The notes under the pieces were generated by a model. That model had not been told where the DNA came from and made no database searches. It was given only the letters and a program-made list of their open reading frames with translations. From Candidatus Eiseniibacteriota bacterium (GTDB lineage: Bacteria > Eisenbacteria > RBG-16-71-46), in the NCBI GenBank assembly GCA_025357055.1, contig JANXPZ010000058.1:1-42276 (forward strand): 42,276 nucleotides of DNA, given 5' to 3'. This document shows positions 7,711 through 31,560 of the stretch, in pieces. A program made the translations under genes and the position numbers. The first letter of the stretch is position 1. Every line of letters starts with the position of its first letter.

Positions 7711-8589
7711 TCACGCCACCGCCGCGCGCAGCGCCCGCACGTGCTCCGGGGTCGTGCCGCAGCAACCCCCGACGATACCCACGCCCGCCAGCACCAGCGC
7801 CTTCGCCTGCTCCGCCATGAACTCCGGCGTCTCGGGGTAGACGGTCTCGCCGCCGCGCGGTTCGGGCAGGCCGGCGTTGGGCTGGATCGCGATGGGCCGC
7901 GTCGTGTGTGCGCGGAACTCACGCGCGACCTCGACCATGACCTCGCTGCCGTTGCCGCAGTTCGAGCCCAGGATGTCGGCGCCGGCCTCGCCCAGCTCGC
8001 GCGCGGCCTGCTCGACCGAGGCGCCCATCACGGTGAAGAACCCGCGCCGGCTGCGCTCGAACGTCATGGTCGCCATCACGGGCAGCGCGGGCGCCACCGC
8101 GCGCGCCGCGCGCACGGCCAGCACCGCCTCGGCCAGGTCGATCATGGTCTCGATGCAGACGAGGTCGGCCCCCGCTTCGGCCAGCGCGCGGATCTGGCGC
8201 TCGAAACCCGCGCCGATCTCGGCCGGGTCGCCGTCGCCGTACGGCTTGAGCACGTGCCCGCTGGGGCCGACCGAGGCCGAGACGAAGGCACGCCCACCCA
8301 CCGCGCGGCGCACCGCCGCGACGGCCGCGCGGTTGATCTCCTCGGTCTGCCCGTCCAGCCCGTAGCGCCGCAGCCGCGCCGGCGAGCCGCCGAAGCTGTT
8401 CGTGGTGATCAGGTCGGCGCCGGCCTCGAGGTAGAGCCGCGCGATCTCCTCGAGCACCTCCGGCCGCGACCGGTTGAGGACTTCGGGGGCCTCGCCGGGC
8501 TCGAGCCCGCGTGTCATGAGCAGCGTGCCCCAGGCCCCGTCGCCGATCAGGACCTCGCCCGCAGCGAGCCGCTCGAGCAGGCTCTTCAT
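7711..8589 (-). CDS. Homocysteine S-methyltransferase (MetH N-domain type)
   Basis: A 292-residue TIM-barrel methyltransferase that should transfer a methyl group to the thiolate of homocysteine, making methionine. It starts with LIGDGAWGTLLM, has TTNSFGGSPARL (substrate region), ETMIDLAEA, and the three Zn-binding cysteines: one in SNCGNG (about 208) and two in GGCCGTT (about 274). It corresponds to the first domain of cobalamin-dependent methionine synthase only; folate, cobalamin and activation domains are absent from this chain. The corrinoid protein encoded 79 bp upstream in the same operon is the obvious methyl donor. The Shine-Dalgarno before the ATG at 8589 is weak. Other thiol acceptors cannot be excluded. 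Confidence 0.9.
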   Translation of the reverse strand: MKSLLERLAAGEVLIGDGAWGTLLMTRGLEPGEAPEVLNRSRPEVLEEIARLYLEAGADLITTNSFGGSPARLRRYGLDGQTEEINRAAVAAVRRAVGGRAFVSASVGPSGHVLKPYGDGDPAEIGAGFERQIRALAEAGADLVCIETMIDLAEAVLAVRAARAVAPALPVMATMTFERSRRGFFTVMGASVEQAARELGEAGADILGSNCGNGSEVMVEVAREFRAHTTRPIAIQPNAGLPEPRGGETVYPETPEFMAEQAKALVLAGVGIVGGCCGTTPEHVRALRAAVA

Positions 8590-8668
8590 GCGACCGGCAC
8601 GACCGGGGCGGCGAACACGTCCGGGGCGGCGCCCTCGAAGCGGGCCGCGCGCGCCACTCCGCCCCCGC

Positions 8669-9310
8669 TCACGCCCCGGCCGCCACCAGCGCGCGCACGC
8701 GCTCGACGGCGTTCGCGGCGTCGTAGCCGTGGGCGTCGGCGCCGATCTCGCGGGCCCAGGCCTCGGACACGGGCGCGCCTCCGACGATCACCTTCACCCG
8801 GCCGGCGAGCCCGCGTGCGCGCACCAGCTCCACGACCTCCTTCATCACCGGCATGGTGGTGGTGAGCAGCGCCGAGAGGCCGATGACCGTGGCGCCGTGC
8901 TCCTGCGCGGCATCCACGAAGCGCTGGGCCGGCACGTCGGCGCCCAGGTCGAGCACGTCGAACCCGGCGCCTTTGAGCATGATGGCCACGAGGTTCTTGC
9001 CGATGTCGTGCAGGTCACCGCGCACCGAACCGAGCACGATGCGGCCCGCCGAGGGCACTCCCTCCTGCGCGAGCAGGGGCTTGAGCAGGTCCAGTCCGGC
9101 GTACATCCCCCGCGCCGCGATCAGCACGTCGGGCAGGAAGATCTCCCGCTTGCGGAACTGCTCGCCCACGACATCCATGCCGGCGATGAGACCCCGGTTG
9201 AGGATGTCGAGCGGCGCGCACCGCTCCTCGAGCGCCTGGCGCACGAGTCCTGCGACCCGGTCGTCTTCGCCCCGCTCCAGGCTGGCGGCGATCTCCTTCA
9301 GGATGTCCAT
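8669..9310 (-). CDS. Corrinoid (B12-binding) methyl-carrier protein, MtaC/MttC/MtgC type
   Basis: A 213-residue protein with the two parts of methyltransferase corrinoid proteins: a helical cap domain (about 1-85, with LNRGLIAGMDVVGEQFRKRE and FLPDVLIAA) and a Rossmann B12-binding domain with the DxHxxG signature in GDLHDIGKN (about 98-106), GLSALLTTTMPVM and VIVGGAPVS. The His of DLHDIG should replace dimethylbenzimidazole as lower ligand to cobalt. It would carry the methyl group between the MttB-like enzyme and the homocysteine methyltransferase of the same operon. ATG 9310 is preceded by TGGAGGAGCC on the coding strand, 11 bp after the preceding stop. Confidence 0.93.
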   Translation of the reverse strand: MDILKEIAASLERGEDDRVAGLVRQALEERCAPLDILNRGLIAGMDVVGEQFRKREIFLPDVLIAARGMYAGLDLLKPLLAQEGVPSAGRIVLGSVRGDLHDIGKNLVAIMLKGAGFDVLDLGADVPAQRFVDAAQEHGATVIGLSALLTTTMPVMKEVVELVRARGLAGRVKVIVGGAPVSEAWAREIGADAHGYDAANAVERVRALVAAGA

Positions 9311-9321
9311 GGCTCCTCCAC

Positions 9322-10029
9322 TCACGAGGTCGAGAACGCGGCGTTCCGTGCGCGACAGGGTTGATCCCGGCACTCCCGGCAGAACGGGTAGGCCGGGGCG
9401 AATCGGTGGATGCCGGACGGGCCGGCGACCAGCACGCCCGAGACCGACTTGAGCGGCTCCATCAGGCAGCTCGGGTTGAGCGTGACCCCGATCTCCCCGG
9501 GATCGAGGAACGCGAACAGCGCCCGCTGGCCGCTCACGTGCCAGCCGCAATAGCCGGGGCTGTACGCCAGCGCCCGCGCGCCGTTCGCGCCTGCGCCGCC
9601 CTCCGGTCCGGGGGGCAGCGCGCCGAGCAGCACCGTGAGCCGGTCGGCCGCGGCCGAGGCGACCGAGTCGAGCATGGCGGCCAGCGCCGGCTCGTTGCTG
9701 CCGAACAGGTCGTGGATGCGCGTCGTGACCGCGCCTCCGACGGTCGCCACGAACAACGCGAGCCGTTCCGCCCCGGCGAGCACGGTCTCGAGCGGCGTCT
9801 CGGGGGCGTTGCGACCCTCGCCGCGGTGGACCTCGCGGAACTCCTCGCGCGAGATCCCGCCGATGAGCGCGCGCGGCTCCGCGATCTCCCGGTAGGCCGC
9901 GAGCGCGGCCTCGAGGAGCGCGCCGATGCGCGGCGGCAGGTCCAGCTGCGCGGGCACGCCCTGCAGGCGCAGGACCTCCCCGCGCCCGGGAAGCGACTCC
10001 TCCGCGGTCCACCCGACGCGTTGTCTCAT
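9322..10029 (-). CDS. Corrinoid reactivation protein resembling the MetH activation domain
   Basis: A 235-residue protein whose central and C-terminal parts resemble the AdoMet-binding activation domain of methionine synthase. It carries RALAYSPGYCGW (compare R-P-A-P-G-Y in MetH), then GEIGVTLNPSCLMEPLKSVSG (compare IG-x2-L-x2-S-x2-M-x-P-x2-SVSG; given here in two overlapping pieces, GEIGVTLNPSCL and MEPLKSVSG). The expected job is reductive remethylation of oxidised Co(II) on the partner corrinoid protein with AdoMet. The tail has FCRECRDQPCRAR, a C-x2-C-x4-C cluster that MetH lacks and that could bind iron-sulfur or zinc. The start ATG 10029 keeps it 55 bp behind the MttB-like gene. Upstream in-frame codons run into that gene and are not used. 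Confidence 0.82.
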   Translation of the reverse strand: MRQRVGWTAEESLPGRGEVLRLQGVPAQLDLPPRIGALLEAALAAYREIAEPRALIGGISREEFREVHRGEGRNAPETPLETVLAGAERLALFVATVGGAVTTRIHDLFGSNEPALAAMLDSVASAAADRLTVLLGALPPGPEGGAGANGARALAYSPGYCGWHVSGQRALFAFLDPGEIGVTLNPSCLMEPLKSVSGVLVAGPSGIHRFAPAYPFCRECRDQPCRARNAAFSTS

Positions 10030-10084
10030 GCGTCGCGCTCCGGCAGGCCGCCCGCCCCGGGGGCCCGCTGACCGTCGCGTCCCG

Positions 10085-11545
10085 TCATGCCTCGCGCTCC
10101 GGCAACGCATCCATCCCGTGGCGGCGGGCCTCGCCTTCCATGCGCCGGACCAGCTCGCGCTTGACGCCATCGCCGAGCGCCGAGGGCTGCCAGGCCTCGA
10201 TCAGCCGCGCCACCTCGCGCCGGGCGCGTTGGCCGAGGGTGAGACCGCCCTCCTCCAGCCAGCGCGCCCGGTTGGCCCGGTCGATCACGGGCCCGGGGAA
10301 GGCGATCTCGCTGCGCAGGTGCCTGCGCGTGTGCCGGGCGATGAGCAGGTGCTTCTCGCGCAACAGCTCCTCGAAGAGCGGACGCGCCGGAAAGTCGTCC
10401 TTCGGTTCGATGCCCCGGACCAGGCGCTGGGTCATGGCGCAGATCTCGTCGTCCACCACCAGCTTCTCGAGACTCTGGCAGGACTCGAAGTCGAGCATGC
10501 CCGGTCCCGACACGCTGTCGATGCCCGAGAGGGCCGCGAGGGTCGCGCCGATGCCGGTCTCGAGACCGGCCTGCGCGTCGAGCGCCTTGGCGTCGCTCAG
10601 GGCGATGTAGGCCTGAGTGGGCAGGCCCAGCGAGTGGCCGATCTCGCTGTAGGCGCAGTCCATCATCATGGTCTCGACCGCGCCCATCGGCGTGGTCTCG
10701 TAGCGCAGGTCGAAGATGGCGGGCGAGCCGCCCCACAGCACCGGCGCCCCCGGGCGCGTGATCTGGCTGATCACCACCCCGCTCAGTGTCTCCGCCGCGT
10801 GCTGCACCAGCGAGCCCACCAGGGTCACGGGCGCCATGAAGCCGGAGAGCGGCATGGAGATGAACTCGACCGGGATGCCCCAAGTCGCGCAGTCCACGAC
10901 GTTCTGGCTGGTGACGTCGCTCCACTTGAGCGGCGCGGTCGGGCAGCACGAGAAGATCGCGAGCGGCTTCTCGCGCAGGGCCTCGCCCGTGCCGCGCACG
11001 GCGAGCTGCAGGTCCTTCATGAGTTCGAAGGCCTCGATCGTGAAGGCGCCGGTGACGACCGGCTTCTCGCCGTAGAGCAGGCTGAGGAAGAGCCGGTAGG
11101 AGTCGGAGATGCGGCTCGGGACGTCGGCCGGGATGAAGGCCGTGCTCTGGGAGGCCAGGTGCGGCAGGCCGCTCACGACCTTGACGTAGCGGATGTAGTC
11201 GGCCGTCACCGGCGCGCGCATCTGGCCCGTCTCGCCGTCGAGGATGTGGATGGCCGCCGAACCCGGGGTGAAGCTGACCTGGCCGGCGCCGAAGTGGTGG
11301 GTCTCGCGCCCGAGCGCATCGTGGAGCCGGAACTCGCGCGGCGCCGAGGCGAGCGCGCGGTCCACGAGCGCGGCGCCCAGGTGTGCGCGCGCGGTCGCGC
11401 GGTCCACGCGGGCCCCGTGCCCGGCGAGCGTCTCGAGCAGCGCCGGGTTGTGGACCTCGACCCCGAGCGAATCGAGGAGGTCCCGCGCCTCGGCAAGGAT
11501 GCGCTCGATGAGCGCGGCGTCGAGCAGTCTGAGGGACGGACGCAT
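10085..11545 (-). CDS. MttB-superfamily corrinoid methyltransferase (non-pyrrolysine)
   Basis: A 486-residue member of the trimethylamine methyltransferase superfamily, TIM-barrel enzymes that demethylate amines or quaternary amines and pass the methyl to a corrinoid protein. Recognisable parts are LLDSLGVEVHN near the N-terminus, QVSFTPGSAAIHILDG, FSCCPTAPLKWSD, and TRPGAPVLWGGSPAIFDLR with GAVETMMMDCAYSEIGH. The reading frame is complete with no in-frame TAG, so this is the pyrrolysine-free branch that includes the glycine betaine enzyme MtgB. Substrate cannot be told from sequence; betaines or similar quaternary amines are the best guess. GGAGG lies just before the ATG at 11545. It is the first gene of the four-gene operon. 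Confidence 0.92.
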   Translation of the reverse strand: MRPSLRLLDAALIERILAEARDLLDSLGVEVHNPALLETLAGHGARVDRATARAHLGAALVDRALASAPREFRLHDALGRETHHFGAGQVSFTPGSAAIHILDGETGQMRAPVTADYIRYVKVVSGLPHLASQSTAFIPADVPSRISDSYRLFLSLLYGEKPVVTGAFTIEAFELMKDLQLAVRGTGEALREKPLAIFSCCPTAPLKWSDVTSQNVVDCATWGIPVEFISMPLSGFMAPVTLVGSLVQHAAETLSGVVISQITRPGAPVLWGGSPAIFDLRYETTPMGAVETMMMDCAYSEIGHSLGLPTQAYIALSDAKALDAQAGLETGIGATLAALSGIDSVSGPGMLDFESCQSLEKLVVDDEICAMTQRLVRGIEPKDDFPARPLFEELLREKHLLIARHTRRHLRSEIAFPGPVIDRANRARWLEEGGLTLGQRARREVARLIEAWQPSALGDGVKRELVRRMEGEARRHGMDALPEREA

Positions 11546-11801: not shown

Positions 11802-11937
11802 CGGAGGCATGAACGAAGATGATCACCTACCTCGGGGTCCTCGTGGGGAGGACGTCGCGGGCCGGAGCGCGGGAAGTCGAGTCGCGAACCGGCGACGCTG
11901 GCGGCGCACGCACGACATCGAAAGCGCAGGTCGTCCC

Positions 11938-12049
11938 GGTGACCACCTCCGAAGCAGGGGGTGGTCGCCTCGCAGACCCGGCCGCGCAGGTTGCATCGGG
12001 GCCACATCTCCGCCGCAGGAGAATAGCCACGGCGGCTGGAGGTGTGGCC
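11938..12049 (+). promoter_or_regulatory. Two strong leader hairpins upstream of korD
   Basis: Hairpin 1: 11938-11950 pairs with 11957-11969 over 13 bp, including two G-U pairs, around GAAGCA. Hairpin 2: GGCCACATCTCC starting at 12000 pairs with GGAGGTGTGGCC ending at 12049, and the stem continues with CGCCG/CGGCG past a single bulged base; TCTTCT follows it. Both precede the korD start by 50-160 bases. They would suit an attenuator or riboswitch in the leader of the nine-gene operon. Hairpin 2 followed by a short T-rich run is terminator-like. Confidence 0.45.
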
Positions 12050-12100
12050 GTCTTCTATGAGCCGGTGACAGATGGCCGGTCTCGAACCAGGGGGATCGCC

Positions 12101-12448
12101 TTGAGCCTGAACCCGCGAGTGACCGCGCGGAAGCCGATGGTCTCGCACCCGCCTGCGGTCCGGGGCCGCGTGATCATCCGCGTGGAGCGATGCAAGGGCT
12201 GCGCCTTCTGTGTCGAGTTCTGCCCGCAGCACGTGCTGAAGCTCTCCTCCGAGTTCAATCCCAAGGGCTTCCACTACCCCGTGGTGGTGAAGGACGAGTG
12301 CATCAACTGCACCTTGTGCGCCTCCCTCTGCCCGGACTACGCGATCTACTCGAAACCCGCCGGCGCACGACCGGCCCCGCAGCAGGTCCCCGGCCCGAAC
12401 GGCAACGGCGTGAAGCGCGGGGCATCCAGCCAAGGATCCATGTCATGA
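12101..12448 (+). CDS. korD: 2-oxoacid:ferredoxin oxidoreductase delta subunit (ferredoxin), first KOR copy
   Basis: A ferredoxin-like subunit with two 4Fe-4S motifs, CKGCAFCVEFCP and CINCTLCASLCP, that carries electrons out of the KOR catalytic core. The best start is TTG 12101, preceded by AGGGGGA (12089-12095), giving 115 residues; ATG 12137 would give 103. The frame is open further upstream to 11819, but that extension is Arg/Gly-rich and unlike KorD. The stop overlaps the korA start by 4 bp (ATGA), showing translational coupling. The paralogue at 33642-33959 has the same architecture, with CKGCGFCVEFCP and CKNCDLCEMICP. Confidence 0.88.
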   Translation: MSLNPRVTARKPMVSHPPAVRGRVIIRVERCKGCAFCVEFCPQHVLKLSSEFNPKGFHYPVVVKDECINCTLCASLCPDYAIYSKPAGARPAPQQVPGPNGNGVKRGASSQGSMS

Positions 12449-13641
12449 GCGAGAATCCCGCGGTGCTGACCGGCGAACACTTCCTCCTGGGCGATCACGC
12501 CATCACCGAGGGGGCCCTGGCGGCCGGATGCCGCTTCTTCGCGGGCTACCCGATCACGCCCTCGACCGAGACGGCTGAGCTGATGTCCCACCGCATGCCC
12601 GAGGTCGGCGGCCTCTATCTCCAGATGGAGGACGAGATCGCCTCGATCGCCGCCATCCTGGGCGCGGCCTGGGGCGGGGCGAAGACCATGACCGCCACCT
12701 CCGGCCCCGGCTTCTCGCTGATGCTCGAGAACCTCGGCCTCGGCATCATCACCGAGACCCCCACGGTGATCGTCAACGTCCAGCGCGGCGGGCCCTCCAC
12801 CGGGCTCCCGACCCTCATGGCGCAGGGCGACATGATGCAGGCGCGCTGGGGCTCCCACGGCCACTACGAGATCATCGCGGTCACGCCCTGGAACGCGCAG
12901 GAGTGCTTCGAGCTCACCCTCCGCGCCTTCAACCTCGCCGAGCGCTACCGGACGCCGACCCTGGTGCTGGCCGACGCGGAGATCGGGCACCTGATCGAGA
13001 AGGTGGTGATCCCGCCGGCCGAGAAGCTCGAGATCTGGAACCGCAAGCGTCCGACCGTGAAGCCCGGCGAGTTCAAGACCTTCCAGCCCGACGACGACCT
13101 CATCCCGCCCATGGCCCCCATCGGAGAGGGTTACCGCGTCTTCGTGGACAGTCTCACCCACGACGAGCGCGGTTACCCGGTGATGACCGCCGAGGCCCAG
13201 GCGAAGCTGGTGCAGCGGCTGTGCGACAAGATCCGGAACAACCGCTTCGAGATCTACGACAACGTGGAACGGGACGTGGAGGGCGCCGAGGTCCTGGTGC
13301 TTTCCTACGGCATCTCGGCGCGCACGGCGATGCGCTCGATCGCCCTGGCGCGGGCGCGCGGGCTGAAGGTGGGCATGCTGCGCCTGCGGACCGTCTGGCC
13401 CTTCCCCGAGGAGCGCGTGCGGGAGCTGTCCCGCCGGGTCAAGGGGATCGTGGTGCCCGAGCTCAACCTGGGCCAGATCGTGCGCGAGGTCGAGCGCTGC
13501 GCGATCGACACCTGCCAGGTCGCGCTGGTGCCGCACGCCGGCGGCAGCCTCCACGACCCGGAGGAGATCCTCGACGCGATCGTCCGGGTGAGCGAGGGCA
13601 GGGCTCCGTCGCGGGCCGCCCTGGCGGCCCAGGGAGCGTAG
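12445..13641 (+). CDS. korA: 2-oxoacid:ferredoxin oxidoreductase alpha subunit, first copy
   Basis: A 398-residue KorA-type subunit with the transketolase pyrimidine-binding and C-terminal domains. It contains GYPITPSTE (about 34-42), EDEIASIAAILGAAWGGAKT, TSGPGFSLMLEN, QRGGPSTGLPT and QGDMMQARWGSHG, all typical of the 2-oxoglutarate-type branch. It oxidatively decarboxylates a 2-oxoacid to acyl-CoA together with KorB. It is the same length as the second KorA in the window (398 residues) but clearly diverged. Unusually, korB and korC are not next to it: four Hdr/Flx-type genes are inserted between korA and korB in the same operon. Confidence 0.93.
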   Translation: MSENPAVLTGEHFLLGDHAITEGALAAGCRFFAGYPITPSTETAELMSHRMPEVGGLYLQMEDEIASIAAILGAAWGGAKTMTATSGPGFSLMLENLGLGIITETPTVIVNVQRGGPSTGLPTLMAQGDMMQARWGSHGHYEIIAVTPWNAQECFELTLRAFNLAERYRTPTLVLADAEIGHLIEKVVIPPAEKLEIWNRKRPTVKPGEFKTFQPDDDLIPPMAPIGEGYRVFVDSLTHDERGYPVMTAEAQAKLVQRLCDKIRNNRFEIYDNVERDVEGAEVLVLSYGISARTAMRSIALARARGLKVGMLRLRTVWPFPEERVRELSRRVKGIVVPELNLGQIVREVERCAIDTCQVALVPHAGGSLHDPEEILDAIVRVSEGRAPSRAALAAQGA

Positions 13642-13643
13642 CG

Positions 13644-15650
13644 ATGCCCAGGATCGGCGTGTTCGTCTGCCACTGCGGCGAGAACATCGCGCGCACGGTG
13701 GACGTCCGGAAGGTGGCCGAGGACGCCGGGAGGATCCCCGGCGTGGTCTTCTCCACCGACTACACCTACATGTGCTCGGCTCCCGGCCAGAAGCTGGTGA
13801 TGGACGCCATCCGCGAACGCGGCCTCACCGGGGTCGTGGTCTCGGCCTGCTCACCGCAACTGCACGAACCCACCTTCCGCAACGCCGTCCAGCAGGCGGG
13901 CCTCAATCCCTTCCTCTGCGAGATGGCGAACATCCGCGAACAGTGCTCGTGGGTGCATCCGAACCGGGCCGAGGGCACCGCCAAGGCCTCCCTCATCATG
14001 GCCTCCGCGGTGCAGAAGGTGGCGCGCGGGCGCGCCCTGAGCGCCTCGGAGGTGCCGGTCACCAAGCGCGCGCTGGTGATCGGCGGCGGCGTGGCCGGGA
14101 TCCGCACGGCACTCGACATCGCCAACGCCGGCCACGAGGTGGTCCTGGTCGAGAAGCAGCCGTCGATCGGCGGGAACATGGCCCGCCTGAGCGAGACCTT
14201 CCCCACCCTCGACTGCTCCCAGTGCATCCTGACCCCGCTCATGGTCGAGGTCTCGCGCCATCCCAGGATCGAGCTCATCACCTGCGCCGAGGTCGAGGAG
14301 GTCTCGGGCTACGTGGGCAACTTCCGCGCCCGCATCCGCCGCAGGCCGTCCTTCGTGCGCGCGGACCTGTGCACCGCCTGCGGCGACTGCGCCACCGCGT
14401 GCCCGGCGTCGGTGCCGAACGAGTTCGACCAGGGCCTGGCGTGGCGCAAGGCGATCCACATCCCGTTCCCGCAGGCCGTGCCCTCGACCTACACGCTCGA
14501 TGCCGCAAGCTGCCTGAACACCCAGCTGGTCTCGTCCAAGAGCGGCTACCGGGTGCTCGCGTGCGAGCGTTGCGCCGACGTCTGCAGCCGCAAGGCGATC
14601 GACTACGACATGCGACCCGAGATCATCGAGCGCGAGATCGGCGCGATCGTCGCCGCCACCGGCTACCGGATGATGAGCGGCGAAGGGCTCGCGGACTACG
14701 GCTACGGCCGCTACCCGGACGTAGTGGACAGCCTCGAGTTCGAGCGGCTGCTCTCGGCGTCGGGTCCGACCGGCGGCGAGGTGCTCCGGCCCTCGGACGG
14801 GAAGCCCGCGCGGGACGTCGTGTTCGTGCAGTGCGTGGGCTCGCGCGATCCCGTGCACGGCTACCCGTACTGCTCGCGGGTCTGCTGCATGTACACGGCC
14901 AAGCACGCGCTGCTCTTCAAGCACAAGGTGCACGACGGACGGGCCACGGTCTTCTACATCGACATCCGCGCGGCGGGCAAGGGCTACGAGGAGTTCGTCC
15001 AGCGGGCGATGGAGGAGGAGCGCGTCCTCTACGTCCGCGGGCGCGTGGCCCGGGTCACCCAGGTGGACGGCAGGCTCGTGGTCTACGGCGCCGACACGCT
15101 CAGCGGCCAGCCGTTGCAGGTGCGCGCCGACCTCGTGGTGCTGGCCAGCGCGATGGTGCCTGCGCAGACCAACGTGGCCGCCCGGCTGCGCGTCCCGACC
15201 GACGCGTTCGGGTTCTTCCAGGAGGCCCACCCCAAGCTGCGCCCGGTGGAGACGCTGACCGCGGGGATCTTCATCACCGGCGCCGCGCACGGGCCGAAGG
15301 ACATCCCGGACACGGTGGCCCAGGCGTCCGCCGCCGCGTCGAAGGCGCTCGAGCTCCTGTCCAAGACCCGGCTGCAGCGCGAGCCGACCATCGCCCGGGT
15401 CGACGAGGCCGTGTGCATGGCGTGCTTCGAGTGCGTGCGGATCTGCCCGTACCAGGCGGTCGAGAAGCACGAGGTCCGCGCGCGCGACGGGAGACTCCTG
15501 CGCGTGGTCGCCCGCGTGAACCCGGCGATGTGCGAGGGCTGCGGCGCCTGCGCCGGCGCGTGCCGCTCGAGCGCCATGGACATCCAGGGCTACACCGACA
15601 CCCAGATCTTCGCGCAGCTGACCGCCCTGATGACGGGAGCGGCCTCATGA
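13644..15650 (+). CDS. hdrA: HdrA-like FAD/iron-sulfur electron-bifurcating subunit
   Basis: A 668-residue HdrA homologue. It has the N-terminal GVFVCHCGENIA (about 5-16), YMCSAPGQ, and an FAD-binding VIGGGVAGIRTALDIA (about 145-160). Then come LDCSQCILTPLM (about 188-199), an internal ferredoxin motif CTACGDCATACP (about 242), and two C-terminal clusters CMACFECVRICP (about 590) and CEGCGACAGACR (about 630). In heterodisulfide reductases HdrA carries the flavin that splits electron pairs between ferredoxin and a higher-potential acceptor. The length matches canonical HdrA. It lies 2 bp after korA and overlaps the next start by 4 bp, so it is made with KOR and the Flx-like subunits, which points to one complex. 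Confidence 0.93.
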   Translation: MPRIGVFVCHCGENIARTVDVRKVAEDAGRIPGVVFSTDYTYMCSAPGQKLVMDAIRERGLTGVVVSACSPQLHEPTFRNAVQQAGLNPFLCEMANIREQCSWVHPNRAEGTAKASLIMASAVQKVARGRALSASEVPVTKRALVIGGGVAGIRTALDIANAGHEVVLVEKQPSIGGNMARLSETFPTLDCSQCILTPLMVEVSRHPRIELITCAEVEEVSGYVGNFRARIRRRPSFVRADLCTACGDCATACPASVPNEFDQGLAWRKAIHIPFPQAVPSTYTLDAASCLNTQLVSSKSGYRVLACERCADVCSRKAIDYDMRPEIIEREIGAIVAATGYRMMSGEGLADYGYGRYPDVVDSLEFERLLSASGPTGGEVLRPSDGKPARDVVFVQCVGSRDPVHGYPYCSRVCCMYTAKHALLFKHKVHDGRATVFYIDIRAAGKGYEEFVQRAMEEERVLYVRGRVARVTQVDGRLVVYGADTLSGQPLQVRADLVVLASAMVPAQTNVAARLRVPTDAFGFFQEAHPKLRPVETLTAGIFITGAAHGPKDIPDTVAQASAAASKALELLSKTRLQREPTIARVDEAVCMACFECVRICPYQAVEKHEVRARDGRLLRVVARVNPAMCEGCGACAGACRSSAMDIQGYTDTQIFAQLTALMTGAAS

Positions 15651-17050
15651 CCGAGCCGACCCTGCAGGCCCGGACCGAGACCGCGGCGCCGACCTGGAAG
15701 CCGCAGATCGCGGCCATCGTCTGCAACTGGTGCACGTACGCCGGCGCCGACATGGCGGGGACGACGCGGCGGGAGTACCCGGCGAGCGTGCGCCTGCTGC
15801 GCGTGCCGTGCAGCGGCCGCGTGAACCCGTTGTTCATCCTCAAGGCGTTCGAGCAGGGCGCCGACGGCGTGCTGGTCTCGGGCTGCCACCCGGGTGACTG
15901 CCACTACGTCCAGGGCAACTACTTCGCGCGGCGCCGCTTCGCGGCCTTCCGGTCGTTGCTGAACTTCCTCGGGCTCGATCCGCGACGGGTGCACTTCTCC
16001 TGGATCTCGGCCTCGGAGGGCATCAAGTGGGCGCGGGTCGTCGGCGACGTGACGCGGGCGGTGACCGAGGCCGGCCCGCTCACCGACTGGGGCCGGGCCA
16101 GCTCGCCGGCGCAGGTCACGCTGCCCGAGCCGCCTGCTCCCCGGCCGCAGCCCGCCGCCGCGGAACTGGAGGCGGTCACCGGCCACGTGCGCGAACTCGC
16201 GGCGTCGCTGCTGCGCGAGGGCAAGGTCTCGTTCGTGCTGGGCTGGGCGCCCGGCCCCAGCCCCGGCCAGACGATCCCGGCCTTCATCCAGCGGCCCGAG
16301 GACGCGGCGACGCTGGTCTTCGACACGCACAGCCACGCCGATCTCGCCGCGTTCCTGGCCGGCCCGCGCAAGGTGTCCGGCAAGGTCGCGGTGCTGGTGA
16401 AGGCCTGCGACGCGCGGGCCGCGACCACCCTGCTGGCGGAGGGCCAGCTGGTGCGCGAGGACGTGGTCCTGGTCGGCGTGTCCTGCCCGGGCATGTGGCG
16501 GGACGACCGGCTCGCGTACCGCTGCCACTCCTGTGACGGCGAGGTCGGCGCCCTCTGTGACTTCACCGTGAGTGCCGCGGGCGTGCAGCCGGGGGCGCTC
16601 CCGACCGGCGCGAAGCGGGCCACCGGGCCCGATCCGCGCGATCTCCAGAACGCGCATCTCGAGTCACTGCCTGCCGCCCAGCGCTGGGCGTTCTGGCAGG
16701 AGCAGTTCGCCGACTGCGTGCGCTGCTACGCCTGCCGCGCGGTCTGTCCGATGTGCTACTGCGGGAGCTGCATCTCCGAGCAGCACCGCCCCCAATGGGT
16801 ACCCACCTCGATCGACGGCCGTGGCAACACGGCCTGGAACCTGGTCCGCGCCTACCACCTGAGCGGCCGCTGCGTGGGCTGCGACGAGTGCGAACGCGTG
16901 TGCCCGGCGAACATCCGCCTCGACCTGATCAACCGGCGGCTGGCGCTGGAGCTCGAGCAGCGGTTCGACTATCACGCGGGGACGGACCCGGAGGGGGCTC
17001 CGCCGCTCGCCACCTTCCGGCCCGACGACCCGCAGGAGTTCATCTACTGA
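15647..17050 (+). CDS. MvhD-FrhB/Fe-S fusion subunit (Flx-like)
   Basis: A 467-residue fusion. Residues about 18-145 are MvhD/FlxD-like, with the 2Fe-2S cysteines in VCNWCTYAGAD, RVPCSGRV and SGCHPGDCHY; MvhD docks on HdrA and feeds it electrons. A Pro/Ala-rich linker (about 160-180) follows. Residues about 185-330 resemble F420-hydrogenase beta/FdhB-type proteins (VKACDARAATTLL, VGVSCPGMW). The C-terminus has CHSCDGEVGALC, CVRCYACRAVCPMCYCGSC and CVGCDECERVCP, enough for two or more 4Fe-4S clusters. The domain pairing would wire the NAD(H)-side subunits directly to HdrA. Start codon overlaps the hdrA stop and stop codon overlaps the next start. Confidence 0.82.
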   Translation: MTEPTLQARTETAAPTWKPQIAAIVCNWCTYAGADMAGTTRREYPASVRLLRVPCSGRVNPLFILKAFEQGADGVLVSGCHPGDCHYVQGNYFARRRFAAFRSLLNFLGLDPRRVHFSWISASEGIKWARVVGDVTRAVTEAGPLTDWGRASSPAQVTLPEPPAPRPQPAAAELEAVTGHVRELAASLLREGKVSFVLGWAPGPSPGQTIPAFIQRPEDAATLVFDTHSHADLAAFLAGPRKVSGKVAVLVKACDARAATTLLAEGQLVREDVVLVGVSCPGMWRDDRLAYRCHSCDGEVGALCDFTVSAAGVQPGALPTGAKRATGPDPRDLQNAHLESLPAAQRWAFWQEQFADCVRCYACRAVCPMCYCGSCISEQHRPQWVPTSIDGRGNTAWNLVRAYHLSGRCVGCDECERVCPANIRLDLINRRLALELEQRFDYHAGTDPEGAPPLATFRPDDPQEFIY

Positions 17051-18120
17051 TGGGCACTCCTTCGGCAGGACAGATCCACCGCCTCGGGCGGGACCAACTG
17101 GCGTCGTGGGTGGACGCGCTGCTCGGCGAGCGCAAGCGGGTCTTCGCGCCGGTCCTGCGGCGCGGACTGCGGGTGTTGCGCGCGGTGGAGCGTGCGCAGG
17201 ACGTCGACTTCGCCCCCGGCCGGACCCGCTGGTCGCCCAAGGAGTTCCTGTTCCCCCGCACCGAGACGCTGTTCTCCTATGAGAACCGCGACGGGGTGCC
17301 GGTGCTCGCCGATCCGCCGGCGGACGATGTCCCCCGGATCCTGTTCGGCGTGCAGCCCTGTGACGCCGCCGGCCTGGTGCGCCTCGACTCCATCCTGCTC
17401 CAGGATCCCTTCTACGCCCGGCGCCGCGAGCTCACCACGGTGGTGGCCATCGCCTGCTCCGAGGCCGCTCCCGAGTGCTTCTGCACCGCGGTCGGCGGAT
17501 CCCCTGCCGGCCAGGAGGGCGTGGACGTCCTGCTGGCGCCGCTCGAGACGGGCTGGGTCGTCCGCGCCCTGAGCCCGAAGGGCGAGGCCCTCCTCGCCCC
17601 GCGGCGGGGCGGCTGGGAAACGGCCGCCGCGGGTGACTGGGAAGCCGCCCTCGAGCAGGCGGGCCGCGTGGCCGGAAGCATCGGCCGCCGCGAGCTCCCC
17701 GCCGCCTGGGCGGAGAAGCTCGAGCAGAGCTTCGCCGACCCGATCTGGGACGAGCTCGCCCGTCGCTGCGTCGGCTGCAGCATCTGCGCCTACGTCTGTC
17801 CGTCGTGCTCCTGCTTCGACGTGGCCGACGAGGGCAGCGACGCCTGCGGCTCGCGCTGCCGCACCTGGGACAGCTGCTCCTTCCGCCTGTTCACCCAGCA
17901 CGGCTCGGGACACAACCCGCGCGCCACGCAGCCCGCGCGGTCGCGCCAGCGCGTGCTGCACAAGTTCGCGTTCTACCCGCTGCAGCACGGCGGCCGGGCG
18001 ATGTGCGTCGGCTGCGGCCGCTGCATCCGGTCCTGTCCCGTGGGGATGGATATCCACGCGGAGGTCGTCGAGGTGATGTCCGGGAGACCGGAGAAGGAGG
18101 CGGGGGATGTCCAGCGCTGA
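17050..18120 (+). CDS. 4Fe-4S dicluster subunit, AsrA/HydB/FlxB-like
   Basis: A 356-residue iron-sulfur protein of the sulfhydrogenase beta/anaerobic sulfite reductase A type. The N-terminal half has KEFLFPRTETLF and LFGVQPCDAAGLVRLD (family signature RPCD-x2-A). The C-terminal half has CVGCSICAYVCPSCSCFD (about 240) and CVGCGRCIRSCP (about 319). It would relay electrons between the FAD/NAD-binding subunit encoded next and the MvhD fusion. The ATG at 17050 shares its A with the TGA of the preceding gene. No sulfite reductase catalytic subunit or hydrogenase large subunit is encoded nearby, so an Flx-type role is more likely. Confidence 0.85.
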   Translation: MGTPSAGQIHRLGRDQLASWVDALLGERKRVFAPVLRRGLRVLRAVERAQDVDFAPGRTRWSPKEFLFPRTETLFSYENRDGVPVLADPPADDVPRILFGVQPCDAAGLVRLDSILLQDPFYARRRELTTVVAIACSEAAPECFCTAVGGSPAGQEGVDVLLAPLETGWVVRALSPKGEALLAPRRGGWETAAAGDWEAALEQAGRVAGSIGRRELPAAWAEKLEQSFADPIWDELARRCVGCSICAYVCPSCSCFDVADEGSDACGSRCRTWDSCSFRLFTQHGSGHNPRATQPARSRQRVLHKFAFYPLQHGGRAMCVGCGRCIRSCPVGMDIHAEVVEVMSGRPEKEAGDVQR

Positions 18121-18994
18121 GACCGCGGCCGGCCCGGCGCGCGCTGCCGCCGGCACGGCCGGGCCGCTCGAGAGCCCGCTCAAGCCGCGCCTGATGCGCA
18201 TCGTCGAGGCCTGGGACGAGACGCCGGACGTGCGCAGCCTGCGGCTCCAGCCGGTCGACGACGGCCCGCCGGTGCGCTGGCTGCCCGGACAGTTCGGCGA
18301 GTTCTCGGTGTTCGGCGCGGGCGAGGCGGTCTTCACCATGGCGAACTCGCCGTCGCGCGGAGAGTTCGTCGAGTGCGGCTTCCGCGCCCTCGGCAAGGTG
18401 ACCTGGGCGCTCCGCGACCTCGCGGTGGGCCAGGTCATCGGCTACCGCGGCCCCTACGGGAACTCCTTCCCCGTGGACTCGTGGCGGGGCAAGGACCTGG
18501 TCTTCATCGGCGGCGGCATCGGCACGGTCGCGCTGCGCGCGCCCCTGCAGTGGGTGCTCGACCACCGCGGCGATTTCGGCGAGATCGTGGTGCTGAACGG
18601 CGCCCGCAGCGTCGCGGACCTCTGCTACCAGAAGGAGATGCCCGCCTGGGCGGAGGTGCCCGGCGTCCACGTGGTCCGCACGGTCGATCCGGGCGGCGAG
18701 ACCCCGGGGTGGGACGGCGAGGTCGGCCTGCTGCCGGCGGTGTTCGAGCGGCTGGGCCTGGCGCCCGGCGGCCGCATCGTCGTCACCTGCGGCCCGCCCG
18801 TCATGCTGCACTACCTGTTCCAGTCGCTCGAAAAGCTGAAGTTCCCGCCGGAGGACGTGGTGACCACGCTCGAGAACAAGATGAAGTGCGGTCTCGGGCT
18901 CTGCGGTCGCTGCAACGTCGGGCGCCTGTTCGTGTGCGTGGACGGTCCCGTATTCACCTGGGCCCGCATGCAGACCCTGCCCAGGGACTACTAG
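18107..18994 (+). CDS. FAD/NAD(P)-binding oxidoreductase, AsrB/HydG/FlxA-like
   Basis: A 295-residue protein of the ferredoxin-NADP reductase superfamily. It has an FAD-binding barrel (PGQFGEFSVFG, FTMANSP, GYRGPYGNSFP), a nucleotide-binding segment FIGGGIGTVALRAPL (about 133), NGARSVADLCYQKEM, and a C-terminal cysteine cluster in MKCGLGLCGRCNVG and VCVDGPVF for an iron-sulfur centre. In Flx-Hdr and sulfhydrogenase complexes this subunit oxidises or reduces NAD(P)H. AAGGAGG lies before the ATG at 18107, which is 14 bp inside the preceding gene. It gives the operon its likely pyridine-nucleotide port. Confidence 0.9.
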   Translation: MSSAETAAGPARAAAGTAGPLESPLKPRLMRIVEAWDETPDVRSLRLQPVDDGPPVRWLPGQFGEFSVFGAGEAVFTMANSPSRGEFVECGFRALGKVTWALRDLAVGQVIGYRGPYGNSFPVDSWRGKDLVFIGGGIGTVALRAPLQWVLDHRGDFGEIVVLNGARSVADLCYQKEMPAWAEVPGVHVVRTVDPGGETPGWDGEVGLLPAVFERLGLAPGGRIVVTCGPPVMLHYLFQSLEKLKFPPEDVVTTLENKMKCGLGLCGRCNVGRLFVCVDGPVFTWARMQTLPRDY

Positions 18995-19006
18995 GAGAGG
19001 AGAGTC

Positions 19007-19906
19007 ATGCGTTTGGCCCGCGAGTTGGAGGAGGAGCTCGGCTCGGAACACTGGACCGAGGAGGTGCTCGAAGAGGCGATCTCGCACCCCACCGAGGAGT
19101 TCCTGCGGAAGGACCGGCTTCCCCACATCTGGTGCCCCGGCTGCGGCATCGGCGTGACGACCAACGCCTTCGTGCAGGCGCTGACCGAGGCCGGCGTGGA
19201 CCGCGACAAGCTGGTCATGGTCTCGGGCATCGGGTGCACCGGGCGCGTGTCGGGCTACATGGACTGCGACACCTTCCACACCACGCACGGCCGCGCCATC
19301 CCCTTCGCGCTCGGCCTGCACATGACCAATCCCGATCTCAAGATCGTGGTCGTGAGCGGGGATGGCGACCTCATGTCGATCGGTGGCAACCACCTGATCC
19401 ACGCCGCCCGCCGCAACCCGAACATCACGGTCATCTGCGTGAACAACTTCAACTACGGCATGACCAGCGGGCAGTGCGGACCCACCAGCCACCACGACGC
19501 GCGCACTGCCACGACGCCCTACGGCAACACGGAGTACCCGTTCAACATGCCCCTGCTGGTCGGCTCGGCAGGCGCGACCTACCTGGCCCGCTGGACGGTC
19601 CTCGACCTGGGCCGGGTGCGGCGCTCGATGGTCGAAGCGCTCCAGCACAGGGGGTTCGCCTTCGTCGAGGTCATTTCGCCGTGCCCGATCTACTACGGCC
19701 GCTTCAACAAGCGGGGCGAGGCCGTCGACGAGCTGCGCTACTACCGGGACCATTCCGAAGTGAAGGACTTCGCCCCGCTCGAGGAGTGCAACCTGAGCCT
19801 CAGCGGGAACATCGTGGTCGGCAAGTTCATCGACAAGCAGCGGCCCACGCTCTTCGATCTGGTGGCGACGGAACAGACCCAGCGGGCCCAGGCCCGGAAG
19901 AAATAG
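19007..19906 (+). CDS. korB: 2-oxoacid:ferredoxin oxidoreductase beta subunit, first copy
   Basis: A 299-residue thiamine-diphosphate-binding subunit. It has WCPGCGIGVTTNAF (cluster and TPP region, about 42), SGIGCTGRVSGYMD, THGRAIPFALG, and the TPP-Mg motif GDGDLMSIGGNH (about 118). The loop after NYGMTSGQ reads CGPTSHHDARTATTPYGN. The usual KorB pattern is GGQ followed by SPTTP, as nearly kept in the second copy (GGQNAPTTP), so the substrate pocket here is altered. It lies 12 bp after the FAD/NAD subunit with AGGAGAGGAG as ribosome binding site. A different 2-oxoacid from that used by the second copy is a reasonable inference. Confidence 0.92.
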   Translation: MRLARELEEELGSEHWTEEVLEEAISHPTEEFLRKDRLPHIWCPGCGIGVTTNAFVQALTEAGVDRDKLVMVSGIGCTGRVSGYMDCDTFHTTHGRAIPFALGLHMTNPDLKIVVVSGDGDLMSIGGNHLIHAARRNPNITVICVNNFNYGMTSGQCGPTSHHDARTATTPYGNTEYPFNMPLLVGSAGATYLARWTVLDLGRVRRSMVEALQHRGFAFVEVISPCPIYYGRFNKRGEAVDELRYYRDHSEVKDFAPLEECNLSLSGNIVVGKFIDKQRPTLFDLVATEQTQRAQARKK

Positions 19907-19915
19907 GAGTCGGCG

Positions 19916-20485
19916 ATGGATGCGAAGAAGAAGCACATCGAGGTGCGGTTGAGCGGCTTCGGCGGCCAGGGCCTGGTGCTCGCGGGCATCGTGCTCGGGC
20001 GCGCGGCGGCCGTCCACGAGGGCCGCAACGCGGTCATGGCCCAGAGTTACGGGCCCGAGTCGCGGGGCGGCGCGTCCTGCGCCGAGGTCATCATCGACGA
20101 CGGCGACATCGACTACCCCCACGTGATCGCCCCCGACGTCGTGCTCGTGCTCTCGCAGGAGGCCTACGTCAAGTACGGGAAGAACCGCGACGCCGGCGTG
20201 CTGATGATCGCCGAGAAGGACATCGTCGAGCTCGACCCCGTCGCCGAAGCGGGCCGGAAGGTCCTGCGCGTGCCCTTCACCGCCATCGCCGAGAAGGTCG
20301 GGCGCCGCATTGTGCTGAACATGGTCGCGCTGGGCTTCCTCTGCCGCGCGACCGGCGTGGTCAGCCGCGAGGCCCTGCGGGAGGCGATCCGGGCGTCGGT
20401 GCCCAGGGGCACGGACGAGCTGAACCTGCGCGCCTTCGAGGCCGGGCACGATTATTCCGAGGGTCCGGCGGAGGCCGTGCGATGA
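19916..20485 (+). CDS. korC: 2-oxoacid:ferredoxin oxidoreductase gamma subunit, first copy
   Basis: A 189-residue CoA-binding gamma subunit, with the family opening SGFGGQGLVLAGIVLG, the QSYGPESRGG motif that follows, and LVLSQEAYVKY. It completes the KorABCD set in this operon and ends with a 4-bp overlap (GATGA) on the hdrCB start. The second copy (30991-31560) is also 189 residues long, with GYGGQGVVLI and QSFGPEARG. Ordinary for its family. Confidence 0.92.
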   Translation: MDAKKKHIEVRLSGFGGQGLVLAGIVLGRAAAVHEGRNAVMAQSYGPESRGGASCAEVIIDDGDIDYPHVIAPDVVLVLSQEAYVKYGKNRDAGVLMIAEKDIVELDPVAEAGRKVLRVPFTAIAEKVGRRIVLNMVALGFLCRATGVVSREALREAIRASVPRGTDELNLRAFEAGHDYSEGPAEAVR

Positions 20486-21861
20486 CGCAGCAGACCCTCG
20501 CGCCCGGCCACCAGGCCACCGATCACGAGGCGGAGGACCGGCCGATCCGCGAGATCGAGCGGCAGAGCGAGCAGAACCTCTGGGCCTGCTACCAGTGCGG
20601 CCGCTGCACGGCGGACTGTCCGTTCTCGCTGACGCCGAGCCTGGCCGTGCGGCTCCTGCAGCTCGGGCAACTGGACGAAGCGCGCAAGCTGGCCACGACC
20701 TGGGACTGTGCGAGCTGCTACTCCTGCCAGACCGGGTGCCCCAAGGGCGTGAGCCCGGCGCGGCTCATGAAGGCGCTGCGCGCGCTCGACGGCGGCCAGG
20801 CCCCCGCCGTCTTCACGCGTCCCGCCGACCTGCTGGGCCGCAACGGGGATCCGCTCCCGCTCCAGCCCGCCGCACGGCCCCGCTGGGCGCCGCGCGCCCG
20901 GCTCGCCGCGTGGACCCGGCGCATGCGCGCACACGCGCTGGCCTCGATGCCGCGCGCGTTCCCGCTCATGAGCGCGATCGCGCCGCTCAGCAACCGGATG
21001 ATGAGGCTGCCGGGCGCGCGGCAGCTCGCCCACCTCGTCCTGGGCGTGCACCGCGACCGCCAGCTGCCGAAGTTCGCCGCCCAGTCGTTCCCGGCCTGGT
21101 TCGCGCGCCATCAGCCGCTCGGCGACGGCCGGCGCGGAGCGGTGATCCTGTTCCACGACGAGTTCATGGACTACAACTACCCCCAGACCGGCATCGCGGT
21201 GACCGAGATCCTCGAGCGGGCCGGCTACCGGGTCGAGCTGTTCCGCGGCGTCTGCTGCGGCCGGCCCATGATCTCGAAGGGGTTCGAGGACGGCGCCTCG
21301 GTCTGCGCCGTGAAAAACGTCCCCATCCTGCACGAGGCCGCGAGCCAGGGCGTGTACATCGTGGGCTGCGAGCCGTCCTGCCTGCTCACCCTGCGCGACG
21401 AGTACCTGCACCTGGTGCCGCAGGGGCTCGAGGCTCAGGCCCGCGTGGTCGCGAGCCAGGCGTTCCTCATCGACGAGTTCCTGGTCATGCTGCACGCCAA
21501 GGGAGAGCTCAAGCTCACCTTCCGCCCGGCCGACACGCTGCGGCCCGTGCTGTTCCACGGCCACTGCCACCAGAAGGCCTTCGCGGACGCCACCAAGAGC
21601 GTCCAGTTGCTCGAGCTCGCCGGCTACGACGTGGAGTTCCTCAACGCGGCGTGCTGCGGCATGGCCGGACTTCACGGTTTCGAGAAGCGGCACTTCGAGG
21701 CCTCGCGCGCCGCCTGCGAGCGTTCCGTGCTCCCGGCCGTGCGCTCACGGCCCGACGCCGACCTCGTCATCATGGGAGTCTCCTGCCGCCAGCAGATCGA
21801 GCAGTTCGCCGCCCGCCCGGTCCGCCATCTCGTCGAAGCCGTGCGCGACGCCATCGCCTGA
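20482..21861 (+). CDS. HdrC-HdrB-like fusion with two CCG domains
   Basis: A 459-residue protein joining an HdrC-like ferredoxin part and an HdrB/GlpC-like part. The N-terminus has CYQCGRCTADCP (about 36-47) and CASCYSCQTGCP (about 77-88), two 4Fe-4S sites. After a variable Arg/Ala-rich region come two cysteine-rich CCG segments: GVCCGRPMISKGF with GCEPSCLL, and GHCHQKAF with NAACCGMAGLHGFE. CCG domains bind non-cubane 4Fe-4S clusters and reduce disulfides in HdrB; in GlpC they serve quinone-linked dehydrogenases. It is the last gene of the operon and the likely exit for higher-potential electrons. The true acceptor is unknown. No transmembrane segment is evident. Confidence 0.85.
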   Translation: MTQQTLAPGHQATDHEAEDRPIREIERQSEQNLWACYQCGRCTADCPFSLTPSLAVRLLQLGQLDEARKLATTWDCASCYSCQTGCPKGVSPARLMKALRALDGGQAPAVFTRPADLLGRNGDPLPLQPAARPRWAPRARLAAWTRRMRAHALASMPRAFPLMSAIAPLSNRMMRLPGARQLAHLVLGVHRDRQLPKFAAQSFPAWFARHQPLGDGRRGAVILFHDEFMDYNYPQTGIAVTEILERAGYRVELFRGVCCGRPMISKGFEDGASVCAVKNVPILHEAASQGVYIVGCEPSCLLTLRDEYLHLVPQGLEAQARVVASQAFLIDEFLVMLHAKGELKLTFRPADTLRPVLFHGHCHQKAFADATKSVQLLELAGYDVEFLNAACCGMAGLHGFEKRHFEASRAACERSVLPAVRSRPDADLVIMGVSCRQQIEQFAARPVRHLVEAVRDAIA

Positions 21862-21881
21862 CGCGCCCCGCGCCCCGCCCG

Positions 21882-22334
21882 TCAGCCCGGTGGCCGCCGC
21901 CGCGCGTGGATGGCGCGGTCCAGCGCCTCCAGGAAGTTCGAGCGATCGCGCGGGTCGAAGGGCGGCGGACCGCCTGATTCGATCCCGGCGCTGCGCATCT
22001 CGGAGAGCAGGTTCCGCGTCGCCAGCGCGTCCCCGATGTTCGACTCGGTGAACGGCCGGCCGGTCGTGCCCAGCACATACGCGCCGGCGGCGAGGCAGCG
22101 GGCGGCGAGCGGGATGTCCGCCGTGATCACGATGTCGTCGGCCACGACGTGCGCGACGATCCAGTCGTCCGCAGCGTCGAAGCCCTGGTCCACGACTTCG
22201 AGGACGATGTCCGGACCGCCCGGGATCCGCATCCAGGAGCCCGCCACCAGGGTCACGCCGAGGCCGTAGCGCTGCGCGACCCGGTAGACCTCCTGCTTCA
22301 CCGGGCAGGCGTCCGCGTCAACGTAGATGCGCAG
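21882..22334 (-). CDS. yaiI: YaiI/YqxD (DUF188) family protein, apparent CTG start
   Basis: A 150-residue PIN-like fold protein of unknown function, widespread in bacteria. Members normally begin MRIYVDADACPVKQE. Here the codons for RIYVDADACPVKQEVYR are present, but the codon at the initiator position is CTG (22334-22332). An in-frame TGA lies eight codons upstream with no ATG, GTG or TTG between. GGGAGGG on the coding strand (22342-22348) is correctly spaced from this CTG. A start at GTG 22301 would remove the conserved first strand and the acidic DADAC motif. VVADDIVITADIPLAARCL and the GRPF-TESNI segment confirm the family. Either a CTG start or a single-base sequencing error explains this. 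Confidence 0.85.
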   Translation of the reverse strand: MRIYVDADACPVKQEVYRVAQRYGLGVTLVAGSWMRIPGGPDIVLEVVDQGFDAADDWIVAHVVADDIVITADIPLAARCLAAGAYVLGTTGRPFTESNIGDALATRNLLSEMRSAGIESGGPPPFDPRDRSNFLEALDRAIHARRRPPG

Positions 22335-26876: not shown

Positions 26877-27058
26877 GAGCACTCCTCGTGGGAGATGGGA
26901 AAGGCATCCGCCGTGTCCCTCAAGCCTATCACGCGGGGGGGCACCCGACCACGCCTTCCCCGGCCAGTCCGAGGTTGGCTTCCAGGACGGCCCAGACTCA
27001 CGCGGAGTGCGCCCGAGGGCGCTCCTCGCGCCGCCCCGGGGACCCGCGACGCGCACGC
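26877..27058. other. Intergenic region, weak hairpin only
   Basis: Between the minus-strand PLD start and the stop of the next minus-strand gene. GCGCCC-GA-GGGCGC (27009-27022) could be a weak terminator for the gene at 27059. No clear promoter is recognisable. Confidence 0.3.
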
Positions 27059-30990: not shown

Positions 30991-31560
30991 TCAGGTCTTC
31001 GCCGCCCCGGGCGCGTGTTCGGCCAGCAACTTCTCGGCGTACTCCCGGCCCTTCTCGAAGGCCTTCATGTTCAGCTCTTCGGTGCCTGCCGGGACCGAGT
31101 GGCGCAGCGCCTCGCGCATGGCCTCCATCGGCACCAGCTTCGTGATCGCCGAGAAGAACCCCAGCATCACCACGTTCTGCACCAGCACCCGGCCCAGCGC
31201 CTCGGCGAGCTGGGTGGAGGGGATGCCGTAGGCGCGCTGCGTGGGCTTGACGACCGGGTGGACCAGGTTCGCCTCGTAGACCACCACGCCCTCGTCCTTC
31301 AGCTCGTCCTTGTACAGCTCGAAGCCCTCGGCCGACATCGCCACCAGGACGTCGGGATGGCGCACGTACGGATAGAGCACCTCGGTCTCCGACATCGCCA
31401 GCGTCGCGCTGCACGCGGAGCCGCGGGCCTCGGGGCCGAAGCTCTGGATCATGGCGGCGTGCTTGCCGGCGTGAACGGCCCAGGCCCGCCCGATCACGGT
31501 GCTGATGAGCACCACGCCCTGCCCGCCGTAGCCGGTGACGCGGACCTCAGTCCTGTCCAT
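30991..31560 (-). CDS. korC: 2-oxoacid:ferredoxin oxidoreductase gamma subunit, second copy
   Basis: A 189-residue gamma subunit with GYGGQGVVLISTVIGRAW, QSFGPEARGSACSATL and VAMSAEGFELYK. It is the last gene of the minus-strand korDABC operon and overlaps the korB end by 14 bp. The canonical four-gene order without inserted Hdr genes suggests that this set is the housekeeping 2-oxoglutarate:ferredoxin oxidoreductase. Confidence 0.93.
   Translation of the reverse strand: MDRTEVRVTGYGGQGVVLISTVIGRAWAVHAGKHAAMIQSFGPEARGSACSATLAMSETEVLYPYVRHPDVLVAMSAEGFELYKDELKDEGVVVYEANLVHPVVKPTQRAYGIPSTQLAEALGRVLVQNVVMLGFFSAITKLVPMEAMREALRHSVPAGTEELNMKAFEKGREYAEKLLAEHAPGAAKT

Follow-up and report, generated by a model that had tools for sequence, protein, structure and literature searches.

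The window analysed here, the whole of a 42-kb contig (C102; JANXPZ010000058.1, 42,276 nucleotides) from a 3.3-Mb metagenome-assembled genome (MAG) of Candidatus Eisenbacteria that is 96.8% complete, carries on its minus strand a compact operon of four genes (7711-11545) in the order mttB-act-mtgC-mtgE. They encode an MttB-type methyl-donor:corrinoid methyltransferase, a protein resembling the activation domain of the methionine synthase MetH, a corrinoid carrier, and a zinc-type homocysteine S-methyltransferase; act, mtgC and mtgE are named by analogy. An original prediction, made from the DNA alone, had recognized these four components and proposed a direct transfer of methyl from a quaternary amine to homocysteine, yielding methionine without folate.

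Results

The first gene, mttB (10085-11545, minus strand), encodes 486 amino acids with a Pfam MTTB domain (PF06253, 235 bits) over its full length, and it scores 327 bits against TIGR02369, below the cut-off of 525 for that model. Its frame is open, with no in-frame TAG or other stop, and the position of the MttB pyrrolysine is occupied by Leu316, which is invariant in 16 homologues; the protein is a member of the pyrrolysine-free MttB superfamily (COG5598). An AlphaFold2 model (pLDDT 85) superposed on MttB (7xcl), MtgB (2qne/9yce) and a Sinorhizobium meliloti protein (4yyc) with TM scores of 0.85-0.88. However, identity to the superposed Methanosarcina MttB, Desulfitobacterium MtgB and Sinorhizobium homologue was only 23-26%, and the substrate can therefore not be read from the model. 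This comparison covered family members with solved structures. For the pyrrolysine-free MttB proteins that have been characterized, the substrates are quaternary amines (glycine betaine, proline betaine, carnitine, gamma-butyrobetaine and phosphocholine; PMC12478193, PMC12155760), and a quaternary amine such as betaine is, by family membership only, the most likely candidate donor. Flanking genes in other genomes were considered as a guide to the substrate and gave no clue, being unrelated (sulfatase, histidine kinase, GNAT, redoxin, glycoside hydrolase).

The product of act (9322-10029, minus strand; 235 amino acids) matches Pfam weakly, reaching 26.5 bits with Met_synt_B12 (PF02965; cut-off 25) over part of the domain. 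Its AlphaFold2 model (pLDDT 87) gave clearer results: the best Protein Data Bank match was Thermotoga TM0269, a MetH activation domain that exists as a separate protein (E 2e-9, TM 0.67/0.79), followed by the activation domains of E. coli, Thermus and human MetH. Two motifs of the S-adenosylmethionine (AdoMet) type, SPGY..W and LM.P.KS.S, vary little or not at all among 15 homologues, and the same holds for all three cysteines of an extra C-terminal C-x2-C-x4-C motif. By its modelled fold and AdoMet-binding motifs, Act is a stand-alone MetH activation domain with a predicted reactivating function.

The third gene, mtgC (8669-9310, minus strand; 213 amino acids), encodes a corrinoid carrier with B12-binding (PF02310, 102 bits) and B12-binding_2 (PF02607, 76 bits) domains, in which the DxHxxG motif reads GDLHDIGKN and D99, H101 and G104 are invariant in 13 homologues. 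Its best NCBIfam model was MtgC (208 bits, below cut-off), as compared to 147 bits for the MetH cobalamin module, and by these scores it appears nearest to carriers of the MtgC/MttC type. The operon had been called a disassembled methionine synthase, which holds as a description but not as an origin; because MtgC scores better as an MtgC/MttC type than as a MetH module, the parts are not mere excisions from MetH.

The last gene, mtgE (7711-8589, minus strand; 292 amino acids), matches S-methyl_trans (PF02574) with 224 bits. Its zinc cysteines C211, C276 and C277 are invariant in 12 homologues, and the E147-T148, NC and GGCCG motifs are likewise invariant. The closest solved relative is the homocysteine module of Thermotoga maritima MetH (172 bits, versus 70 for betaine--homocysteine methyltransferase [BHMT]), and among NCBIfam models a homocysteine methyltransferase/MTHFR bifunctional model (265 bits) outscored the betaine--homocysteine model (223 bits, cut-off 338). 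All four predicted components were thus found again by Pfam, and MttB and Act by their structure models as well.

The genes are separated by 55 (mttB/act), 11 (act/mtgC) and 79 (mtgC/mtgE) bases, and mttB and mtgC are each preceded by a good ribosome-binding site. Longer open reading frames starting at 10170 for act and 9325 for mtgC were rejected as over-extended, as orthologues and a GGAGGAG site before the ATG at 9310 favor starts at 10029 and 9310. The window was also searched for RNA or riboswitch control; nothing in it matched Rfam, and it contains no tRNA.

Genome-wide statements on the host come from family searches and are limited by its 96.8% completeness. Its only MTTB protein and its only free corrinoid protein of the MtgC type are those of the operon. 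A check for full-length metH or metE, proposed at the outset, gave a divided answer: the host encodes a MetH of 1180 amino acids on contig C134, but no MetE (PF01717) was found. The operon therefore adds a route rather than replacing MetH. A homocysteine methyltransferase/MTHFR fusion of 641 amino acids is also present.

An MttB match was found in 15 of 47 sampled genomes of the phylum and in 2 of 20 in the host's own family, where a named Candidatus Eisenbacteria MAG holds a 91%-identical orthologue. Acidobacterial orthologues share 81-82% identity with the MttB of the window while those of other Eisenbacteria families share ∼70%, and this closer relationship points to horizontal transfer. 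An act profile search over 396 Acidobacteriota genomes yielded ∼40 strong stand-alone matches, the neighborhoods of which were examined. The survey of homologue neighbors that had been suggested thus found all four genes together in at least 31 loci from soil and groundwater bacteria of the Eisenbacteria and Acidobacteriota, and because so many loci carry all four, the clustering is not due to chance. The order MttB-Act-MtgC-MtgE occurs in 24 loci (three at contig edges) and MtgC-MtgE-Act-MttB in seven, plus one cut by a contig end; each order coincides with one of two MttB clades. In 29 loci the pairwise divergences of the four proteins correlate (r 0.88-0.95), a pattern that fits co-inheritance but also reflects in part a shared species history.

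In three loci (L051, L097 and L112), the order is UroD-Act-MtgC-MtgE, with MttB replaced by a UroD-family relative of the MtaA/CmuA methyltransferases. The L051 genome also has an MttB 82% identical to that of the window, alone on another contig.

Folate methyltransferases were sought by family, with PF00809 for the type of MtgD, MeTr and MetH and PF02007 for the type of MtrH. The only PF00809 matches in the host were MetH and dihydropteroate synthase, with no free-standing PF00809 protein. Similarly, in 17 other genomes with MttB orthologues no free PF00809 protein was found, all matches being dihydropteroate synthase-like or in a MetH-sized chain; eight small frames were checked against the host's dihydropteroate synthase (one of them a weak contig-end fragment) and the rest were sorted by size and score. 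PF02007 (MtrH type) was absent from all 18 genomes. Because no free folate methyltransferase was found in the host, MtgE is the one evident exit for a methyl group on MtgC. Neighborhoods were also inspected for a consistent MtgA/MtqA-type folate methyltransferase, and in ∼60 loci a single exception was seen: locus L131 (313-5030, minus strand) groups act with a pair of MttB paralogues, a corrinoid protein and a MeTr-like folate methyltransferase, but has no mtgE. The MeTr-like protein, whose NCBIfam name is methyltetrahydrofolate:corrinoid methyltransferase, was found by PF00809, so the search can detect such proteins. L131 is a folate-linked relative of the four-gene system, and because it lacks mtgE, folate and homocysteine look like alternative acceptors.

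The L131 genome also has a RamA-type activase (PF14574, DUF4445), whereas none was found in the host or in the 13 of 13 Eisenbacteria relatives tested, which leaves Act as the evident reactivator there. One relative (G005, 100% complete) has no PF02574 protein other than the MtgE of the operon, and neither MetH nor MetE is found in it; a second (G011, 89%) looks the same in its methionine synthase content; these organisms either make methionine via the operon or are auxotrophs. Five other genomes with a separate act gene (G013, G015, G017, G114 and G151) have MetH-like frames of ∼800 amino acids, which are shorter than full-length and apparently without an activation domain; stand-alone Act may also serve these proteins.

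The rest of the window holds several other features. Divergent from the operon is a plus-strand cluster (11819-21977) encoding a ferredoxin, 2-oxoacid:ferredoxin oxidoreductase alpha, beta and gamma subunits, an HdrA-like protein, a FlpD-containing protein, HydB/HydG-like subunits and an HdrCB-like protein, which looks like an electron-confurcating 2-oxoacid oxidoreductase. A link between it and the operon was considered and dropped, as locus maps showed no shared neighbor family. Another set of 2-oxoacid:ferredoxin oxidoreductase subunits, again alpha, beta and gamma (30991-33876, minus strand), lies ∼10 kb from the first. A 1258-amino acid protein (23556-27332, minus strand) with PLD-like, lamin-tail and Por secretion-tail domains is probably a secreted nuclease or phospholipase, and a 294-amino acid protein with no Pfam match (27059-27943, minus strand) adjoins a Gfo/Idh/MocA oxidoreductase. 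Three overlapping tyrosine-recombinase (Phage_integrase) genes in tandem (37000-40611, plus strand) resemble a recombinase-in-trio element.

Discussion

We propose, with a probability of about 0.7, that this operon specifies a methyl donor:homocysteine methyltransferase that depends on cobalamin but not on folate and would draw on a small methylated donor, most likely a betaine-like quaternary amine. The proposal is built on the four components with their key residues, on the modelled folds of MttB and Act, on the conservation of the linkage, and on the finding of no recognizable free folate methyltransferase or RamA activase in the genomes searched. From these we infer the reactions, their direction, homocysteine as the acceptor, and the class of donor. 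MttB would transfer a methyl group from the small methylated compound to the cob(I)alamin of MtgC, giving methylcobalamin-MtgC, and MtgE would pass it to homocysteine, releasing methionine and cob(I)alamin. Occasional cob(II)alamin on MtgC would be reactivated by Act with AdoMet and an electron donor. In the host, the system may supplement MetH, as BHMT does in animals, serving methyl salvage, the first step of betaine breakdown, or both. The direct, folate-free transfer to homocysteine in the original prediction is thus supported, as far as gene content can speak to it, by the conserved four-gene unit and by the 18 genomes without a free PF00809 or PF02007 protein.

Nearest among known systems are MtgBCDE of Ruegeria pomeroyi and the split methionine synthase of Phaeobacter inhibens, which likewise link betaine demethylation to methionine through an MttB-family donor enzyme, a small corrinoid protein and a stand-alone PF02574 enzyme that share one carrier. 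In Ruegeria, however, neither betaine demethylation nor methionine synthesis proceeds without the folate subunit MtgD (Mausz et al., PMC12478193), and mtgE is often unlinked, whereas the operon of the window has no folate subunit and keeps its four genes together. Reactivation differs as well, as the split Phaeobacter inhibens synthase uses RamA-like and DUF1638 proteins, with no PF02965 protein found (Price et al., PMC5764234), in contrast to the PF02965-type Act found here. By analogy the operon would work like MtgBCDE minus folate, but because both MtgD and the RamA-like reactivator are absent, we do not file it as MtgBCDE. A search of the open-licence literature for MttB and homocysteine in Acidobacteria returned nothing beyond Mausz et al.

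Other systems share fewer features. Like MtgABC of Desulfitobacterium hafniense and MtpB, MtcB and MtyB of Eubacterium limosum, the operon pairs a pyrrolysine-free MttB with a cognate corrinoid protein; in the MtgABC type, however, the acceptor is tetrahydrofolate via MtgA/MtqA, where the operon has a homocysteine enzyme and no MtrH- or PF00809-type enzyme was found. MtgA and MtqA are members of the MtrH family. With MetH the operon shares the homocysteine, cobalamin and activation functions, and with the split Thermotoga MetH/TM0269 a separate activation domain, but here the functions lie on separate genes, with no folate module, an MttB-family donor enzyme and an MtgC/MttC-type corrinoid protein. 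The presumed outcome, betaine and homocysteine to methionine without folate, is that of BHMT, which is a single zinc enzyme without cobalamin, whereas the reaction here would involve four proteins and a corrinoid carrier. Core methionine synthases MesA-MesD (PMC7857596) also make methionine independently of folate, and MesA-C probably use corrinoid proteins, but their origin is the C-terminal domain of MetE (PF01717, not found in the host) while MtgE is a PF02574 protein.

The alternative that survives best concerns the donor and is compatible with the acceptor half of our proposal: a sulfonium, methyl ether, methyl halide or other compound may take the place of a quaternary amine while the acceptor chemistry stays the same. 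We regard this as a tentative possibility, in keeping with the remoteness of this MttB clade from the characterized members with solved structures (∼25% identity), the lack of substrate-linked neighbors and the UroD-type donors that replace MttB in some loci, but set against the use of quaternary amines by characterized pyrrolysine-free MttB proteins (PMC12478193, PMC12155760).

It is unlikely that the operon is instead an ordinary catabolic MtgBC, sending methyl groups to tetrahydrofolate through the MetH folate module in trans or an unrecognized methyltransferase, with MtgE drawing on the same carrier for methionine from methyl-folate. Such a scheme matches the R. pomeroyi model (PMC12478193), and L131 does pair MttB with a MeTr-like folate methyltransferase; however, mtgE is missing from that very locus, no free PF00809 or MtrH protein appeared in 18 genomes, and G005 carries the operon without any MetH.

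Slightly less likely still is that a thiol or selenol other than homocysteine (for example cysteine, methanethiol or coenzyme M) accepts the methyl group and that the pathway is one of methyl disposal or thiol methylation. PF02574 enzymes do vary in their methyl donor, and some methylate selenols. In addition, mlp clusters have been proposed to methylate selenide or thiols via a corrinoid protein (PMC10418091). Against this stand the proximity of MtgE to MetH homocysteine modules among solved proteins, its invariant E147-T148, NC and GGCCG motifs, and the MetH-type activator that accompanies it. That MtgE is a direct betaine:homocysteine methyltransferase of the BHMT type, independent of the other three proteins, is very improbable despite its match to the betaine--homocysteine model, as the MTHFR-type model scores higher, human BHMT is a distant match, the S. 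meliloti-type "Bhmt" is reported to lack the betaine-binding residues and to be an MtgE (Mausz et al., PMC12478193), and the invariable presence of a corrinoid protein with an activator would be left unexplained.

Several observations weigh against the proposed folate-free donor:homocysteine system. The linkage of the four genes is not absolute, because eight Acidobacteriota loci (L116, L117, L119, L122, L123, L124, L125 and L134) have Act-MtgE without a neighboring corrinoid gene and three have MttB-Act-MtgC without an adjoining mtgE; of the latter three genomes, two have an mtgE-sized PF02574 protein elsewhere and the third has an 813-amino acid, MetH-sized frame. (In five loci checked, the Act-MtgE pairs adjoin an elongation-factor-G-like gene.) With its full-length MetH, the host does not depend on the operon to make methionine from folate. 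The PF00809 and PF02007 searches cover known families; the sequence is also compatible with a folate methyltransferase from outside these, or with the MetH folate module acting in trans. For the donor, no transporter or demethylation gene was linked to the operon in the neighborhoods of other genomes, and MttB is only ∼25% identical to any characterized member with a solved structure.

The replacement of MttB by a UroD-type methyltransferase is the strongest hint that act, mtgC and mtgE form an acceptor module served by different donors. We give somewhat better than even odds to the broader view that these three genes are a self-contained, horizontally mobile homocysteine-methylating cassette with exchangeable MttB- or UroD-type donors, which would make methionine from environmental methyl compounds without folate and would in some genomes (e.g., G005) be the only recognizable methionine synthase.

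If the proposal is correct, the operon would be a third coupling of osmolyte demethylation to methionine besides BHMT and MtgBCDE, and to our knowledge the first such route with cobalamin but without folate. As a compact four-gene system, its donor and acceptor modules would be swappable. It would also correct predictions of methionine auxotrophy for genomes without MetH or MetE, and would give a role to many uncharacterized pyrrolysine-free MttB proteins of soil and groundwater Acidobacteriota and Eisenbacteria.

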